NCBI RefSeq assembly: GCF_030128825.1
Contig: NZ_CP119127.1
Span: 788,001-852,000 of the forward strand
Length of the DNA stretch: 64,000 nt
Direction: 5' to 3'
Source of the DNA: Sphingobium sp. WTD-1
GTDB lineage: Bacteria > Pseudomonadota > Alphaproteobacteria > Sphingomonadales > Sphingomonadaceae
The first letter of the stretch is position 1; every line of letters starts with the position of its first letter. Both the position numbers and the translations under genes were made by a program. Below are positions 16,889 to 56,242 of this stretch, piece after piece. The notes beneath the pieces were generated by a model. That model ran no database searches, was not told where the DNA came from, and was given only the letters and a program-made list of their open reading frames with translations.

Positions 16889-17029
16889 CGTCTCTTGGTC
16901 CTCTGGCGGATGGCAATCGACCGGCATTACGCACGGGCCGCCATTTGGTGCCCGAGCGGCCATGCGCTTTTGTCTGGCGCGGGGCGCAAGAGGCTGTAAA
17001 GAACAGATCATGACCATGGGGCAATGGCG

Positions 17030-17635
17030 ATGATCGCGAAACTCAAAGGACGGCTGGACAGCACGGGCATCGACCATGCCATCATCGATGTCGGCGGGGT
17101 CGGCTATCTGGTCGGCGCATCGTCGCGGACGCTGGCGGCGCTCGGCCCGGTGGGCGAGGCGGTGACCATCCATACCGAGATGCTGGTGGCCGAGGATTCG
17201 ATCCGGCTGGTCGGCTTTGCCCGAGCGGAGGAGCGCGACTGGTATCGGCTGCTGACCCATGTGCAGGGCGTGGGATCGCGCGTGGCGCTGGCGATATTGT
17301 CGGCGCTGGAACCGCTGGAGCTGCATCGCGCGATCATGATGGGCGACAAGGCGATGATCGCGCGCGCCAACGGTGTCGGCCCCAAGCTGGCCCAGCGCAT
17401 CGTCAATGAGCTGAAGGACAAGATCGGCGCCGCCCCGGCCGGTGCGCCCGGCATGCCGGGCGTGGTCGCGCTGCCGACCGGCAGCTTTGCCGCCGACGCG
17501 CTGTCGGCGTTGCAGAATCTGGGCTTCAAGCCGGCCGAGGCGAGCGGCGCGGTGGCCGCCGCCGAAGAGGAACTGGGCGACGGCGCCAGCCTTGACGCGC
17601 TGGTCCGCCTGGCGCTGCGGAAGGCGGCGAAGTGA
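17030..17635 (+). CDS. ruvA: Holliday junction branch migration protein RuvA
   Basis: 201 residues. RuvA binds four-way junctions and recruits the RuvB motor. ATG 17030 ([10 protein letters not shown]) is preferred over ATG 17024 because family members start MIAKL and GGGG lies at a better distance. Features: N-terminal OB-fold, tandem helix-hairpin-helix ([17 protein letters not shown] and [23 protein letters not shown]), and a C-terminal RuvB-binding helix domain ([17 protein letters not shown]). The usual neighbour ruvB is separated by a foreign-looking GIY-YIG cassette, and ruvC is not upstream. Confidence 0.96.
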
Positions 17636-17652: not shown

Positions 17653-17681
17653 CGTCATGCTGAACTTGTTTCAGCATCCAT
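17653..17681 (+). repeat. Left 29-bp inverted repeat of the GIY-YIG cassette (REP-like hairpin)
   Basis: Starts CGTCATGCTGAA and ends TTCAGCATCCAT; identical over all 29 bases to the reverse complement of 18027-18055. Within it ATGCTGAA and TTCAGCAT are an 8-bp stem around a 5-nt loop (CTTGT), so each end can fold into a hairpin. It lies 17 bp after the ruvA stop. Read as protein it gives MLNLFQHP one way and MLKQVQHD the other, peptides I have seen in spurious ORF calls from sphingomonad genomes. Confidence 0.9.
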
Positions 17682-17710
17682 GGCGCCGGCTGCACCGAAC
17701 GGAGGCATCA

Positions 17711-18016
17711 ATGAAGCAGCCGTGCGTCTATATTCTGGCAAGCCAGCCATATGGCACGCTCTACATCGGCGTGACCTCCAACTTGCTGGGCCGGATGATG
17801 CAGCATCGCGCAAGCAGGATGCCGAGCTTTACCGCTCGATATGCCGTGCATCGGCTTGTCCGTTACGAAGCCTGCGATACGATGGAACAGGCCATCCTTC
17901 GCGAAAAGCAGCTGAAACGGTGGCATCGCCAATGGAAAATCAATCTCATCGAAGCCGACAATCCGCAATGGAGCGATCTGGCGATGGAATTGGGATTGCC
18001 CCCCTTAAGTCCGTGA
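17711..18016 (+). CDS. Single-domain GIY-YIG nuclease
   Basis: 101 residues from ATG 17711, which has an ideal GGAGG five bases upstream; an earlier in-frame ATG at 17657 lies inside the repeat and is rejected. The domain is complete: CVYILAS...GTLYIGVTSNLLGRMMQH (the GIY-YIG core with Arg), then FTARYAVHRLVRYEACDTMEQAILREKQLKRW with the metal-binding Glu region, ending INLIEADNPQWSDLAMEL. This is the small UvrC-N/YhbQ-like type; family members cut DNA with one divalent metal, but a cellular role is unsettled. Flanked on both sides by the same 29-bp repeat in opposite orientation. Confidence 0.88.
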   Translation: MKQPCVYILASQPYGTLYIGVTSNLLGRMMQHRASRMPSFTARYAVHRLVRYEACDTMEQAILREKQLKRWHRQWKINLIEADNPQWSDLAMELGLPPLSP

Positions 18017-18026
18017 CGGGGGCAGG

Positions 18027-18055
18027 ATGGATGCTGAAACAAGTTCAGCATGACG
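18027..18055 (-). repeat. Right 29-bp inverted repeat of the GIY-YIG cassette
   Basis: Exact reverse complement of 17653-17681 and able to form the same 8-bp stem. It begins 11 bp after the nuclease stop codon and ends 20 bp before the ruvB ATG, so it now lies in the ruvB leader where a hairpin could affect ruvB translation or block read-through from ruvA. Confidence 0.9.
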
Positions 18056-18074: not shown

Positions 18075-19097
18075 ATGAGCGAAGAGGATCGCCTGATCAC
18101 CCCGGCCCGTCGTGCCGAGGATGTCGATGCGGCGCTGCGGCCCAAGTCGCTCGACGAATTTGTCGGGCAGCAGGCGGCGCGCGAGAATCTGCGTATCTTC
18201 ATCCAGGCGGCGCGCACCCGTGGCGAGGCGCTGGACCATGTGCTGTTCTTCGGCCCGCCGGGCCTGGGCAAGACGACGCTGGCACAGATCGTCGCCAAGG
18301 AAATGGGCGTGGGTTTCCGCGCCACGTCCGGCCCGGTGATCGCCAAGTCGGGCGACCTGGCCGCCCTGCTCACCAATCTGGACGAGGGCGATGTCCTGTT
18401 CGTCGACGAGATTCACCGGCTCAATCCGGCGGTCGAGGAAGTGCTCTATCCCGCGATGGAGGACCGGGCGCTCGACCTGATGATCGGCGAGGGACCGTCG
18501 GCCCGCTCGGTGCGGATCGACCTGCCGCGCTTCACCCTGGTCGGCGCAACAACGCGCCAGGGGTTGCTGACGACGCCGCTGCGCGACCGGTTCGGCATTC
18601 CGGTGCGCCTGCAATTCTATACCGTCGAGGAACTGGAACTGGTGGTGCGGCGCGCGGCGCGGCTGCTGGACCTGGCGATCACGTCGGACGGCGCGATCGA
18701 GATTGCCCGCCGGTCGCGCGGGACGCCGCGCATCGCCGGGCGACTGCTGCGCCGGGTGCGCGACTTTGCAAATGTCGCCGGCGCCCCGACCGTCGATGCC
18801 AAGGTGGCGGATGCGGCGCTGCAACGGCTGGAGGTCGATCATCTCGGCCTCGACCTGATGGACCGGCGCTATCTCCACATGATCGCCGACATCTATCGTG
18901 GCGGGCCGGTGGGGGTCGAAACGCTGGCGGCCGGTCTGTCCGAAGCGCGCGACACGATCGAGGAAGTGGTCGAGCCTTATCTGATCCAATTGGGACTGAT
19001 CGCCCGCACCGCGCGGGGCCGTTGCCTCAACGGGCCGGGCTGGAAGCATCTGGGCCTCAATCCCCCGGCCGGGTCGCAGGACGGGCTGTTCGACTGA
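18075..19097 (+). CDS. ruvB: Holliday junction branch migration ATPase RuvB
   Basis: 340 residues. Features of the hexameric AAA+ motor: [18 protein letters not shown], Walker [16 protein letters not shown] (about residues 57-71), Walker [16 protein letters not shown], sensor 1 [11 protein letters not shown], arginine-finger region [11 protein letters not shown], and a winged-helix C-terminus [22 protein letters not shown]. It drives branch migration with RuvA. No clear ribosome-binding site precedes ATG 18075; a five-codon mini-ORF (18058-18075) ends in TGATG overlapping the start and could couple translation. Confidence 0.97.
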
Positions 19098-48822: not shown

Positions 48823-49067
48823 GCAATCATCTCCGGGTTGTTCGGAAAAGGGGGCATAGGAGGTGGGGCTTGAACCCGCTGTGAACCTTGCTGTTCCATC
48901 GAAGGGAAAGGATCGATCGGAAAGACCAGACGGGGGAGAGCGGCCGTGAAATGGCTGGCTCGATCCCCCGTGCTCCCGCCTCGCCATGCCGGTCTTACCG
49001 GCGGCACCGCTCCAATTATGTTTATCGGCGCGGCAGCAGCGACGCCTGCCTAGACCGATTCGCAGAT
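48823..49067. other. lolA leader and promoter region
   Basis: About 245 bp between the lolA start and the sRNA terminator. It should contain the lolA promoter; I see no convincing gene, and short frames on either strand look like chance. Confidence 0.4.
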
Positions 49068-49170
49068 AAAAAAAAGGCTGATCCGAAGACCAGCCTGAAA
49101 AGTTTTTAGGAGAGGATGCCTGAAAGGCCTGTTCCTAATGGCTCAAAGCCTATGCTCCGACAAATGCGAA
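49068..49170 (-). ncRNA. Candidate small RNA, copy A
   Basis: On the minus strand: a conserved block TTCGCATTTG (49170-49161), a mini-hairpin GGCTTTGAGCC (49151-49141), the core GCCTTTCAGGC then ATCCTCTCCTAAAA (49128-49104), and an intrinsic terminator (49095-49076): an 8-bp stem closed by a UUCG tetraloop and followed by eight T. The 25-bp core is identical in copy B at 56176-56200, and the block TTCGCATTTG sits at the same 33-bp spacing in both, so the two are homologous. The CU-rich stretch resembles an anti-Shine-Dalgarno seed. Ends are estimated. Confidence 0.7.
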
Positions 49171-55932: not shown

Positions 55933-56141
55933 GGCGTTTCCTCTGCTAAAAACTCATTTGGCCATTTGGTGCGGGCGCTTAAACGCCTCATGCGACTTAT
56001 GGAACCATGCGCATAACAGCTATTCCGACGATTTCTACAGGCGGGAATGACGGAATTCCGCGATTTTTCGTCCATCACCCCTGATTTCAAGCGGCTGGAC
56101 GCTACGGCAACTATGTCGTTGTTGCGCGAACATCACAGGTC
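55933..56141. other. Leader and promoter region of the FadL-type gene
   Basis: About 210 bp between the fadL-like start and the copy-B sRNA terminator. The first 16 bases upstream include an SD (GAGG) within a stretch complementary to the sRNA core. Beyond that I find no gene; a promoter is expected. Confidence 0.5.
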
Positions 56142-56242
56142 AAAAAAAAAGCCGCCCCGAGGGACGGCTATGAAGTTTTAGGAGAGGATGCCTGAAAGGC
56201 GAGTTCCTTTTGCGGCCAGGCGGCATTCGTCGCAAATGCGAA
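56142..56242 (-). ncRNA. Candidate small RNA, copy B
   Basis: Same architecture as copy A: TTCGCATTTG (56242-56233), a variable middle, the identical 25-bp core (56200-56176) and a terminator with an 8-bp stem, CTCG loop and nine T (56170-56142). The stem sequence differs from copy A while a wobble pair is kept at the same position in the stem, indicating selection on structure. It lies upstream of the FadL-type gene and downstream of the phosphomannomutase gene. Upstream to 56354 I see no gene. Confidence 0.7.

Follow-up and report, generated by a model that had tools for sequence, protein, structure and literature searches.

A small GIY-YIG nuclease gene, bracketed by two inverted, hairpin-forming repeats, separates ruvA from ruvB in the window analysed here (the whole stretch of 64,000 nucleotides), and raises the question of what kind of repeats these are and whether the enzyme is their partner. 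REPs have been sorted into the GTAG and CGTC superfamilies (Di Nocera, De Gregorio and Rocco 2013, PMC3733652). In the parts of that paper that describe them, CGTC REPs have a stem of 8-9 bp starting with AT, a loop of 4-5 nt and a CCA tail, often occur as inverted dimers, and carry at one end the tag of the superfamily, an unpaired CGTC (or TGTC/CCTC). The same parts place them in five phyla, chiefly in alphaproteobacteria, name no enzyme for them, and state that they "apparently lack a dedicated transposase" (PMC3733652). The term GIY-YIG has zero occurrences in a word count of PMC3733652, and no link between GIY-YIG and REPs was found among the matches listed for the open-access literature, subscription journals and preprints (bioRxiv) being outside that scope.

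In our judgement the locus probably represents a complete and seemingly autonomous copy of an element with two components, a small GIY-YIG nuclease and the two inverted CGTC REPs around it, for which we infer the route of binding, cleavage and mobilisation set out below. The GIY-YIG nuclease looks like the missing enzyme partner of the CGTC REPs. This reading is built on observations of the anatomy of the locus, the association of gene and repeats, their specificity, the exact ends of the unit, presence/absence and exchange at orthologous sites, and purifying selection.

Anatomy of the locus

The features of the locus, in window coordinates, are the following.

17024..17635, + strand: ruvA, flanking gene (open reading frame)
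17653..18055, + strand: proposed unit REP - nuclease - inverted REP, with the CGTC tags taken as its ends (from G026 dimer ends and ruvAB sites without the element)
17653..17681, + strand: upstream CGTC REP arm, perfect inverted repeat of 18027-18055 (DNA fold; conservation of 99.5% over 14 scored ruvAB orthologues)
Parts of the upstream arm: CGTC tag 17653-17656; stem 17657-17664 / 17670-17677; loop CTTGT 17665-17669; CCA tail 17678-17680
17701..17705, + strand: GGAGG ribosome-binding site of the nuclease gene (sequence reading)
17711..18016, + strand: GIY-YIG nuclease gene, 101 aa (Pfam PF01541, AF2 model, Foldseek, dN/dS)
18027..18055, - strand: downstream CGTC REP arm, inverted, with its tag (GACG on the + strand) outermost at 18052-18055 (repeat match and DNA fold)
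18075..19097, + strand: ruvB, flanking gene (open reading frame); its ATG start replaces the overlapping start of element-free sites

An earlier, sequence-only reading of this DNA had described perfect inverted ends of 29 nt, each with an 8-bp hairpin, and sequence comparison and DNA folding confirm both: 17653-17681 and 18027-18055 are perfect reverse complements over 29 nt, and each arm folds singly, the 4-nt tag (CGTC) being followed by a stem of 8 bp with a loop of 5 nt and then by the CCA tail, with energies of -6.7 and -7.1 kcal/mol that were equalled by 2/200 and 0/200 shuffles, respectively. With up to 3 mismatches allowed, the 19-nt core is confined to the two arms within the 64-kb window, and 100 shuffles gave none. 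The gene is, as also claimed, lower in GC than its neighbours (0.556 vs 0.696 for ruvA and 0.684 for ruvB) and has its own ribosome-binding site. The ruvAB pair had been called interrupted, which is correct in that the nuclease lies between the two genes, but these are separated by the element and neither is broken. No family was matched at the locus by Rfam at gathering thresholds; elsewhere in the window, two suhB/mmgR small RNA family matches (Rfam) lie on the minus strand at 49060-49135 and 56135-56207.

The repeats of the window are members of the CGTC REP superfamily. Unpaired CGTC tags stand at 17653-17656 and 18052-18055, the AT-starting 8-bp stem, the CTTGT loop and the CCA tail agree with the published description, dispersed inverted dimers occur in the window's own genome (G000) and in the relative G026, and the home is mainly alphaproteobacterial. 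The difference is that the CGTC REPs, in the parts of Di Nocera 2013 that treat them, have no dedicated transposase, whereas here a cognate nuclease lies between the arms. The absence of an associated transposase gene, which is not a structural criterion, is contradicted by a nuclease between two arms in 32/79 relatives (see below), for which the role of transposase is a candidate one.

The parallel with RAYTs, drawn in the sequence-only reading for what it called REP-like repeats, is apt as an analogy, but the superfamily is CGTC and not GTAG. RAYT (TnpA-REP)/REPIN systems share with the element a single enzyme gene with inverted REP flanks, gene-less dimers and a coupling of enzyme and REP types. 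RAYTs are HUH transposases of the Y1 kind that use a covalent tyrosine, and they go with the tag GTAG, whereas here a GIY-YIG hydrolase of another fold goes with the tag CGTC; the locus has neither a Y1 HUH partner nor a GTAG tag. The element would resemble RAYT-REPIN in its working but is no member of it, tag and enzyme both being different.

The nuclease and its relatives

The 101-aa open reading frame carries GIY-YIG alone. A profile match to Pfam PF01541 (E 2.2e-14) and the conserved Tyr, Tyr, Arg, Glu and Asn place it in the GIY-YIG superfamily; Y7, Y18, R28, E65 and N84, which we take to be the GIY-YIG active-site positions, are invariant in an alignment of 28 relatives. For its AF2 model (pLDDT 91, pTM 0.85) the closest solved folds in Foldseek are the UPF0213 protein BH0048, Slx1 and the UvrC N-terminal nuclease (best E 2.4e-3, probability 1.0), and BH0048 was also found by a profile search with the nuclease (E 2.8e-6). 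NCBIfam and PADLOC gave weak matches at most (best E 0.0014), the NCBIfam match being far below its cut-off. Among the best 80 of 554 confirmed relatives, the closest named matches are from Sphingobium.

UPF0213 / YhbQ-YazA GIY-YIG proteins (PDB 1zg2) equal the nuclease in fold and size, but the rows of our alphaproteobacterial sample that we take, by eye, to be YhbQ-like and Slx1-like are without CGTC REP arms. Free-standing GIY-YIG homing endonucleases of the Seg type are likewise small GIY-YIG enzymes tied to the movement of their own gene; we know of none with terminal hairpins, gene-less derivatives or a cognate repeat family. GIY-YIG also serves mobility in the GIY-YIG-bearing Penelope-like retroelements, although there it is joined to a reverse transcriptase and eukaryotic, while the nuclease studied here stands by itself.

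A PF01541 profile search of the 5.67-Mb genome G000 led to six places, one of which, in a 665-aa frame, is presumably UvrC. Paralogues with repeat flanks had been proposed as a check in the sequence-only reading, and all five other GIY-YIG genes are indeed bracketed by inverted REP-type repeats (5/5), but by a different REP sequence at each. Four of the five are CGTC types (TGCTGAA-CTTGT, TTCCCGC-GAAG, TGCCGGA-CTTGT and TTGCGAGC..., the last with an imperfect stem that our strict detector overlooks), and the fifth copy, L012, is bracketed by CCTGAGCGAAGTCGAAGG. Copy L009 has an in-frame stop.

The genome-wide count of the repeat, also proposed earlier, gave 5 exact copies of the 19-nt core in G000, namely the two arms and three solitary sites (L003-L005), and the repeat is thus not confined to the ruvAB locus. 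All three solitary sites are dimers, spaced by about 45 bp, in which the second arm is a variant, and L006, with one mismatch, is likewise a dimer having a variant second arm. Longer stretches of similar sequence (left, GGTGGGAAGCGG...; right, ...TTTCTGGTCG) enclose several of the G000 dimers L003-L007, some of which may therefore be nested in a larger dispersed repeat. Similar outer sequence surrounds nucleases of the type found in G035, a genome in which four contig ends are consistent with two or more identical nuclease copies divided between contigs.

Association of the nuclease with CGTC arms

A single scan of GTDB genomes supplied the relatives, the best 80 out of 554 that were confirmed (L070, with a short flank, was dropped, leaving 79). 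A detector with strict settings ([CT]GTCA; a stem of 7-10, no more than 1 mismatch; a loop of 3-6) was run on their 300-bp flanks, and control windows were shifted by 900-2300 bp. The best 80 are mostly from alphaproteobacteria, the others being labelled as gamma-, beta- and deltaproteobacteria, a planctomycete, Nitrospinae, Chlorobi (Pelodictyon) and Anaerolineae. Outward-tagged CGTC hairpins were present on both sides in 32/79 of these relatives, against 0/436 displaced and 0/400 shuffled, and any CGTC hairpin in the flanks in 60/79, against 22/436 displaced windows; such counts are not independent, given the common descent of the species and the retention of near-identical rows in some of them. 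Among the 32 both-sided loci are one on a planctomycete chromosome (L071) and two in MAGs, of Rifleibacterium (L084) and of a deltaproteobacterium (L091). An inverted-repeat score of at least 14 was reached by 52/79 of the relatives vs 4/294 displaced windows, and, since REP families recur from locus to locus, by 235/1500 flanks that had been mispaired across loci. Chance origin of the inverted repeat is ruled out by the shuffle test of the window together with the displaced-window counts in relatives.

With the strict detector no arm was found in 19/79 of the best-80 relatives or in 13/28 genes of the GTLY type defined below, nor any CGTC hairpin in the 300-bp flanks of the Anaerolineae locus L074; this detector overlooks imperfect REPs, which alignment or visual inspection reveals at several of the armless loci. 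The tags face inward at a few loci (L066, L072). In the genus set (48 loci, made of 29 best matches of their genomes, 4 own copies and 15 chosen by hand), an arm was found at 47. The 128-locus set used for the specificity comparisons joins the 80 best relatives, 29 genus loci, the 4 own copies and 15 of 20 further regions, and leaves out L130-L132 (the copy family of L129), L139 (truncated) and L141, a tandem locus (G059:C1:658500-663000) with three GIY-YIG copies at a 467-bp period.

A sample of 58 alphaproteobacterial genomes, from which ten matches that were fragmentary or not of UvrC length were left out, gave a CGTC hairpin at 15/52 small GIY-YIG genes vs 10/196 displaced windows, and hairpins on both sides at 6/52 vs 0/196. 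The UvrC genes of the same genomes had CGTC arms in 0/7 cases (8 regions taken, 7 scored). All the hairpins belonged to genes of the 'GTLYxGVT' (GTLY) type, 15/28 vs 0/24 of the other small GIY-YIG genes (Fisher 8.6e-6), the two types having been told apart by eye once the REP counts were known. That CGTC arms are a feature of UvrC or of all small GIY-YIG proteins is ruled out by the 0/7 and 0/24.

It could be argued that common intergenic REPs bracket the nuclease by chance, or through the action of another transposase such as a RAYT. Two CGTC REP types were indeed found in 43/61 and 48/61 genus genomes, and Y1 transposases in 17/61. Such hitchhiking is nevertheless very improbable given the complete lack of both-sided bracketing in the two sets of displaced windows and of CGTC arms at the UvrC and other small GIY-YIG genes. 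We also reject a RAYT as the mover, as Y1_Tnp (PF01797) has no match in G000 and the presence of Y1 does not predict REP number in the 61 genomes (medians 2 and 2, P 0.73).

Matching of nuclease and REP types

Dropping 25 of the 128 rows (no arm, or shorter than 75 aa) left 103 for the comparison of specificity. Nuclease distance and REP distance were correlated (Mantel rho 0.46, with 0/999 permutations as high), also after thinning to 54 sequences (rho 0.27, permutation maximum 0.13). The loop length class equalled that of the nearest relative of less than 75% identity in 92/103 rows, near-identical ones being kept, vs a mean of 53 and a maximum of 72 in shuffled data. Within genomes, where only paralogue pairs under 65% identity were compared, the REP was nearer to that of the closest foreign nuclease than to that of the paralogue at 9/9 loci in four genomes. 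A tree of 126 proteins, many forks of which are unresolved, needs 10 changes of loop class. In these sequence comparisons REP type follows nuclease type.

The same pattern has its strongest example at a single orthologous nuclease site, here called site M, in the intergenic position between what are, going by their translated sequences, presumably an aldehyde dehydrogenase and an acyl-CoA dehydrogenase. In G000 and G052 the nucleases are 83% alike and the arms are of the type TGCCGGA-CTTG(A/T). Another nuclease clade occupies the site in G018, G005 and G024 (82-95% identity within, 60-65% between clades), with T(G/C)CTG(A/G)C arms and 4-nt loops, one arm having an enlarged loop. G000 and G018 are close relatives with 100% identical RuvA. 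At this one site a difference in nuclease is thus accompanied by a difference in arms.

Unit ends, gene-less dimers and copy number

The relative G026 holds 48 exact 19-nt cores, and 17 of its gene-less dimers, with spacers of 40-44 bp and at unrelated sites, could be aligned (L377-L393). On the left, conservation is complete from the core to CGTC, on the right it is 0.88-1.0 through GACG, and it drops to background at the first base beyond CGTC/GACG. The nuclease copy of G026 has ends identical to those of its gene-less dimers, and the spacer ends of the dimers show a modest identity to the inner ends of that copy (0.56 and 0.52, vs 0.40 and 0.33 when shuffled). None of the 17 dimers has a perfect target-site duplication at k = 2 to 8, which rules out an insertion-sequence mode with target duplication for gene-less dimers in G026. 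Immediately outside these dimers, pyrimidines predominate before CGTC on the left and purines after GACG on the right, a possible target preference.

A cognate nuclease, set by an arbitrary cut at 70% or more identity to that of the window, is present in 23 of the 61 genus genomes. With two REPs subtracted per nuclease, the median number of extra exact cores is 6 in these 23 and 1 in the 38 others, and at least 2 extra cores are found in 22/23 vs 11/38 (Fisher 1.6e-7, the kinship of the genomes being ignored). Seven of the 38 negative genomes hold 4 to 15 cores; one of these seven, G054, does have nucleases that carry the REP of the window's copy, but at 63-64% identity they fall below the 70% cut. 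Our data suggest that the nuclease spreads or maintains the CGTC repeats. The proposal of the sequence-only reading, that a GIY-YIG enzyme is the mobilising or maintaining partner of such hairpins, is in this way strongly supported beyond the locus itself, by association, specificity, dimer ends and copy number. The interpretation as a whole is partly supported, since the modes of action that it named (a nick in the hairpin, homing together with it, solitary repeats as targets) are candidate ones.

History of the ruvAB copy and of other sites

The ruvAB survey covered 30 genus genomes chosen by hand, and the nuclease lies beside ruvA in 16/30, a figure that is no prevalence since 20 of the genomes were picked for holding a close nuclease. 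Empty sites, which the sequence-only reading had suggested looking for, exist: in 6/30 (G050, G019, G023, G037, G008, G034) the two genes overlap or directly adjoin each other, and no REP is present. Other inserts are present in G014, G006, G043 and G059, and a short REP-like scar in G046; ruvB was missed by motif in 3/30. Fifteen ruvAB copies form one clade in the tree (SH-aLRT 98), the 16th, a broken copy in G049, being too short for it, which is most simply explained by one old insertion with later losses. Judged by this tree, the ruvAB element is an old, vertically inherited insertion, and movement of that copy is therefore not seen; a recent insertion is ruled out by the 15/16 copies in one supported clade. 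Vertical inheritance without solitary repeats had been set, in the sequence-only reading, against its own proposal, and half of this is what we find: the ruvAB copy is vertical and old, but solitary REP dimers and element-free ruvAB sites exist.

The nuclease has a median dN/dS of 0.107 (63/66 pairs of 12 intact ruvAB genes, 3 pairs being saturated and 2 of 14 copies left out). Over 14/16 ruvAB copies the upstream 28-nt REP is conserved at 0.995, vs 0.64 in the 12 bases before and 0.66 in the 14 after it; the downstream arm was left unscored because the stop codon often falls within it. Both parts would accordingly be under selection, or the REP renewed by conversion. In the ruvAB orthologues of G001, G002, G009, G026, G028, G042, G051 and G057 the stop codon of the nuclease lies within the downstream REP stem, so that in these eight the REP encodes the C-terminus of the nuclease.

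Four solitary dimer sites were compared in six close relatives, two of them (C and D) being informative. At site C, G018 has the same dimer as G000, while different sequence occupies the site in G050, G029, G016 and G014. At site D the dimer is present in G000, G029 and G016 and absent from G050, and G018 has a dimer of another CGTC family. These sites bear on the possibility that the nuclease no longer moves DNA, its mobility being past, and now keeps REPs uniform, for example by cutting variants and thereby provoking gene conversion, or uses them as chromosomal processing sites. The strong purifying selection on the gene and the conserved REP at an old locus, whose copies form one supported clade, would fit such a role, but a dimer that some close species have and another lacks at site D, and the 48 exact cores of G026, including 17 pairs that proved on examination to be dimers with no gene, each at a site unrelated to the others, argue against it, and we regard pure maintenance as unlikely.

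Close species also differ at four nuclease sites (M, N, O and P). Site M has a left arm without nuclease in G050, G016 and G029; at site N the nuclease is present in G018 and G050, and a truncated REP in G029; at site P it is present in 6/7 genomes. At site O, G000, G029 and G050 have the nuclease, and G016, G018 and G014 have gene-less dimers of other CGTC families; this site (L354, L362, L363, L369, L372, L360) is a possible insertion hot spot. An arrangement of this kind, with other-family dimers in the intergenic site of the nuclease in related species, would fit a homing parasite. In that case the nuclease would be a GIY-YIG homing endonuclease of the free-standing kind, gene-less REP dimers being the DNA that it cuts and into which repair then copies it, and the REPs would spread by other means. 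Homing endonucleases of the GIY-YIG type are known, and the nuclease element shares its ends with gene-less dimers. The six element-free ruvAB sites, however, are without a REP dimer, a cognate nuclease goes with more REP copies and not fewer, and at site M the arms differ along with the nuclease, which makes homing unlikely.

Proposed mechanism

In the two-component element that we favour, the nuclease would recognise the hairpin of its own REP family by stem, loop and CGTC tag, probably bound as single-stranded or extruded DNA, and would cut at or near the CGTC tag, where the unit ends. The short REP dimers would be the gene-less, REPIN-like version of the unit and could be mobilised in trans, with the nuclease copy retained by selection. 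GIY-YIG enzymes hydrolyse DNA with no covalent intermediate, and rejoining or copying to a new site would therefore need host replication or repair. Beside the RAYT-REPIN arrangement, the pairing of nuclease and CGTC REP would then stand as a second solution, unrelated to the first. With a cognate nuclease the origin of CGTC REPs becomes directly testable, and the matched enzyme-hairpin pairs, of varied loops and stems and several per genome, offer a natural set for the study of DNA-structure recognition by small GIY-YIG proteins.

A second GIY-YIG subfamily

The GIY-YIG type of the G000 copy L012, here called 'CADG', was sought in 142 class genomes. A TGAGC...GTCGAA motif is present in the flanks of 10/17 'CADG' loci examined vs 4/66 displaced windows, the motif having been set after part of the loci had been seen and nine of the 17 overlapping the earlier sample. 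Two further loci have the variant CCTGAGGAGC...GTCTCGAAGG as inverted repeats. The REPs that often flank this subfamily (L255, L259, L260, L269, L288, L289, L318-L331) are of the type TGAGC...GTCGAAGG and not of the CGTC superfamily. A second GIY-YIG subfamily may thus pair with another REP superfamily, an association that, with a motif chosen post hoc, is a lead and not proof.

Taken more broadly, we lean slightly towards the view that GIY-YIG nucleases are the long-missing enzymes of RAYT-less REPs, and that at least two subfamilies have each built hairpin-ended mobile elements (GTLY with CGTC in several phyla, 'CADG' with TGAGC...GTCGAAGG in alphaproteobacteria), whose gene-less dimers would make up much of the intergenic repeat load and which would move by hydrolytic cutting and host repair. 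To our knowledge no bacterial transposon moves in that way.

At L012 itself (G000:C1:2566145-2566393, minus strand) the GIY-YIG reading frame continues in frame into a gene that we take to be RNA-methyltransferase-like, giving a fused open reading frame of 361 aa in which the downstream REP is translated as a linker.
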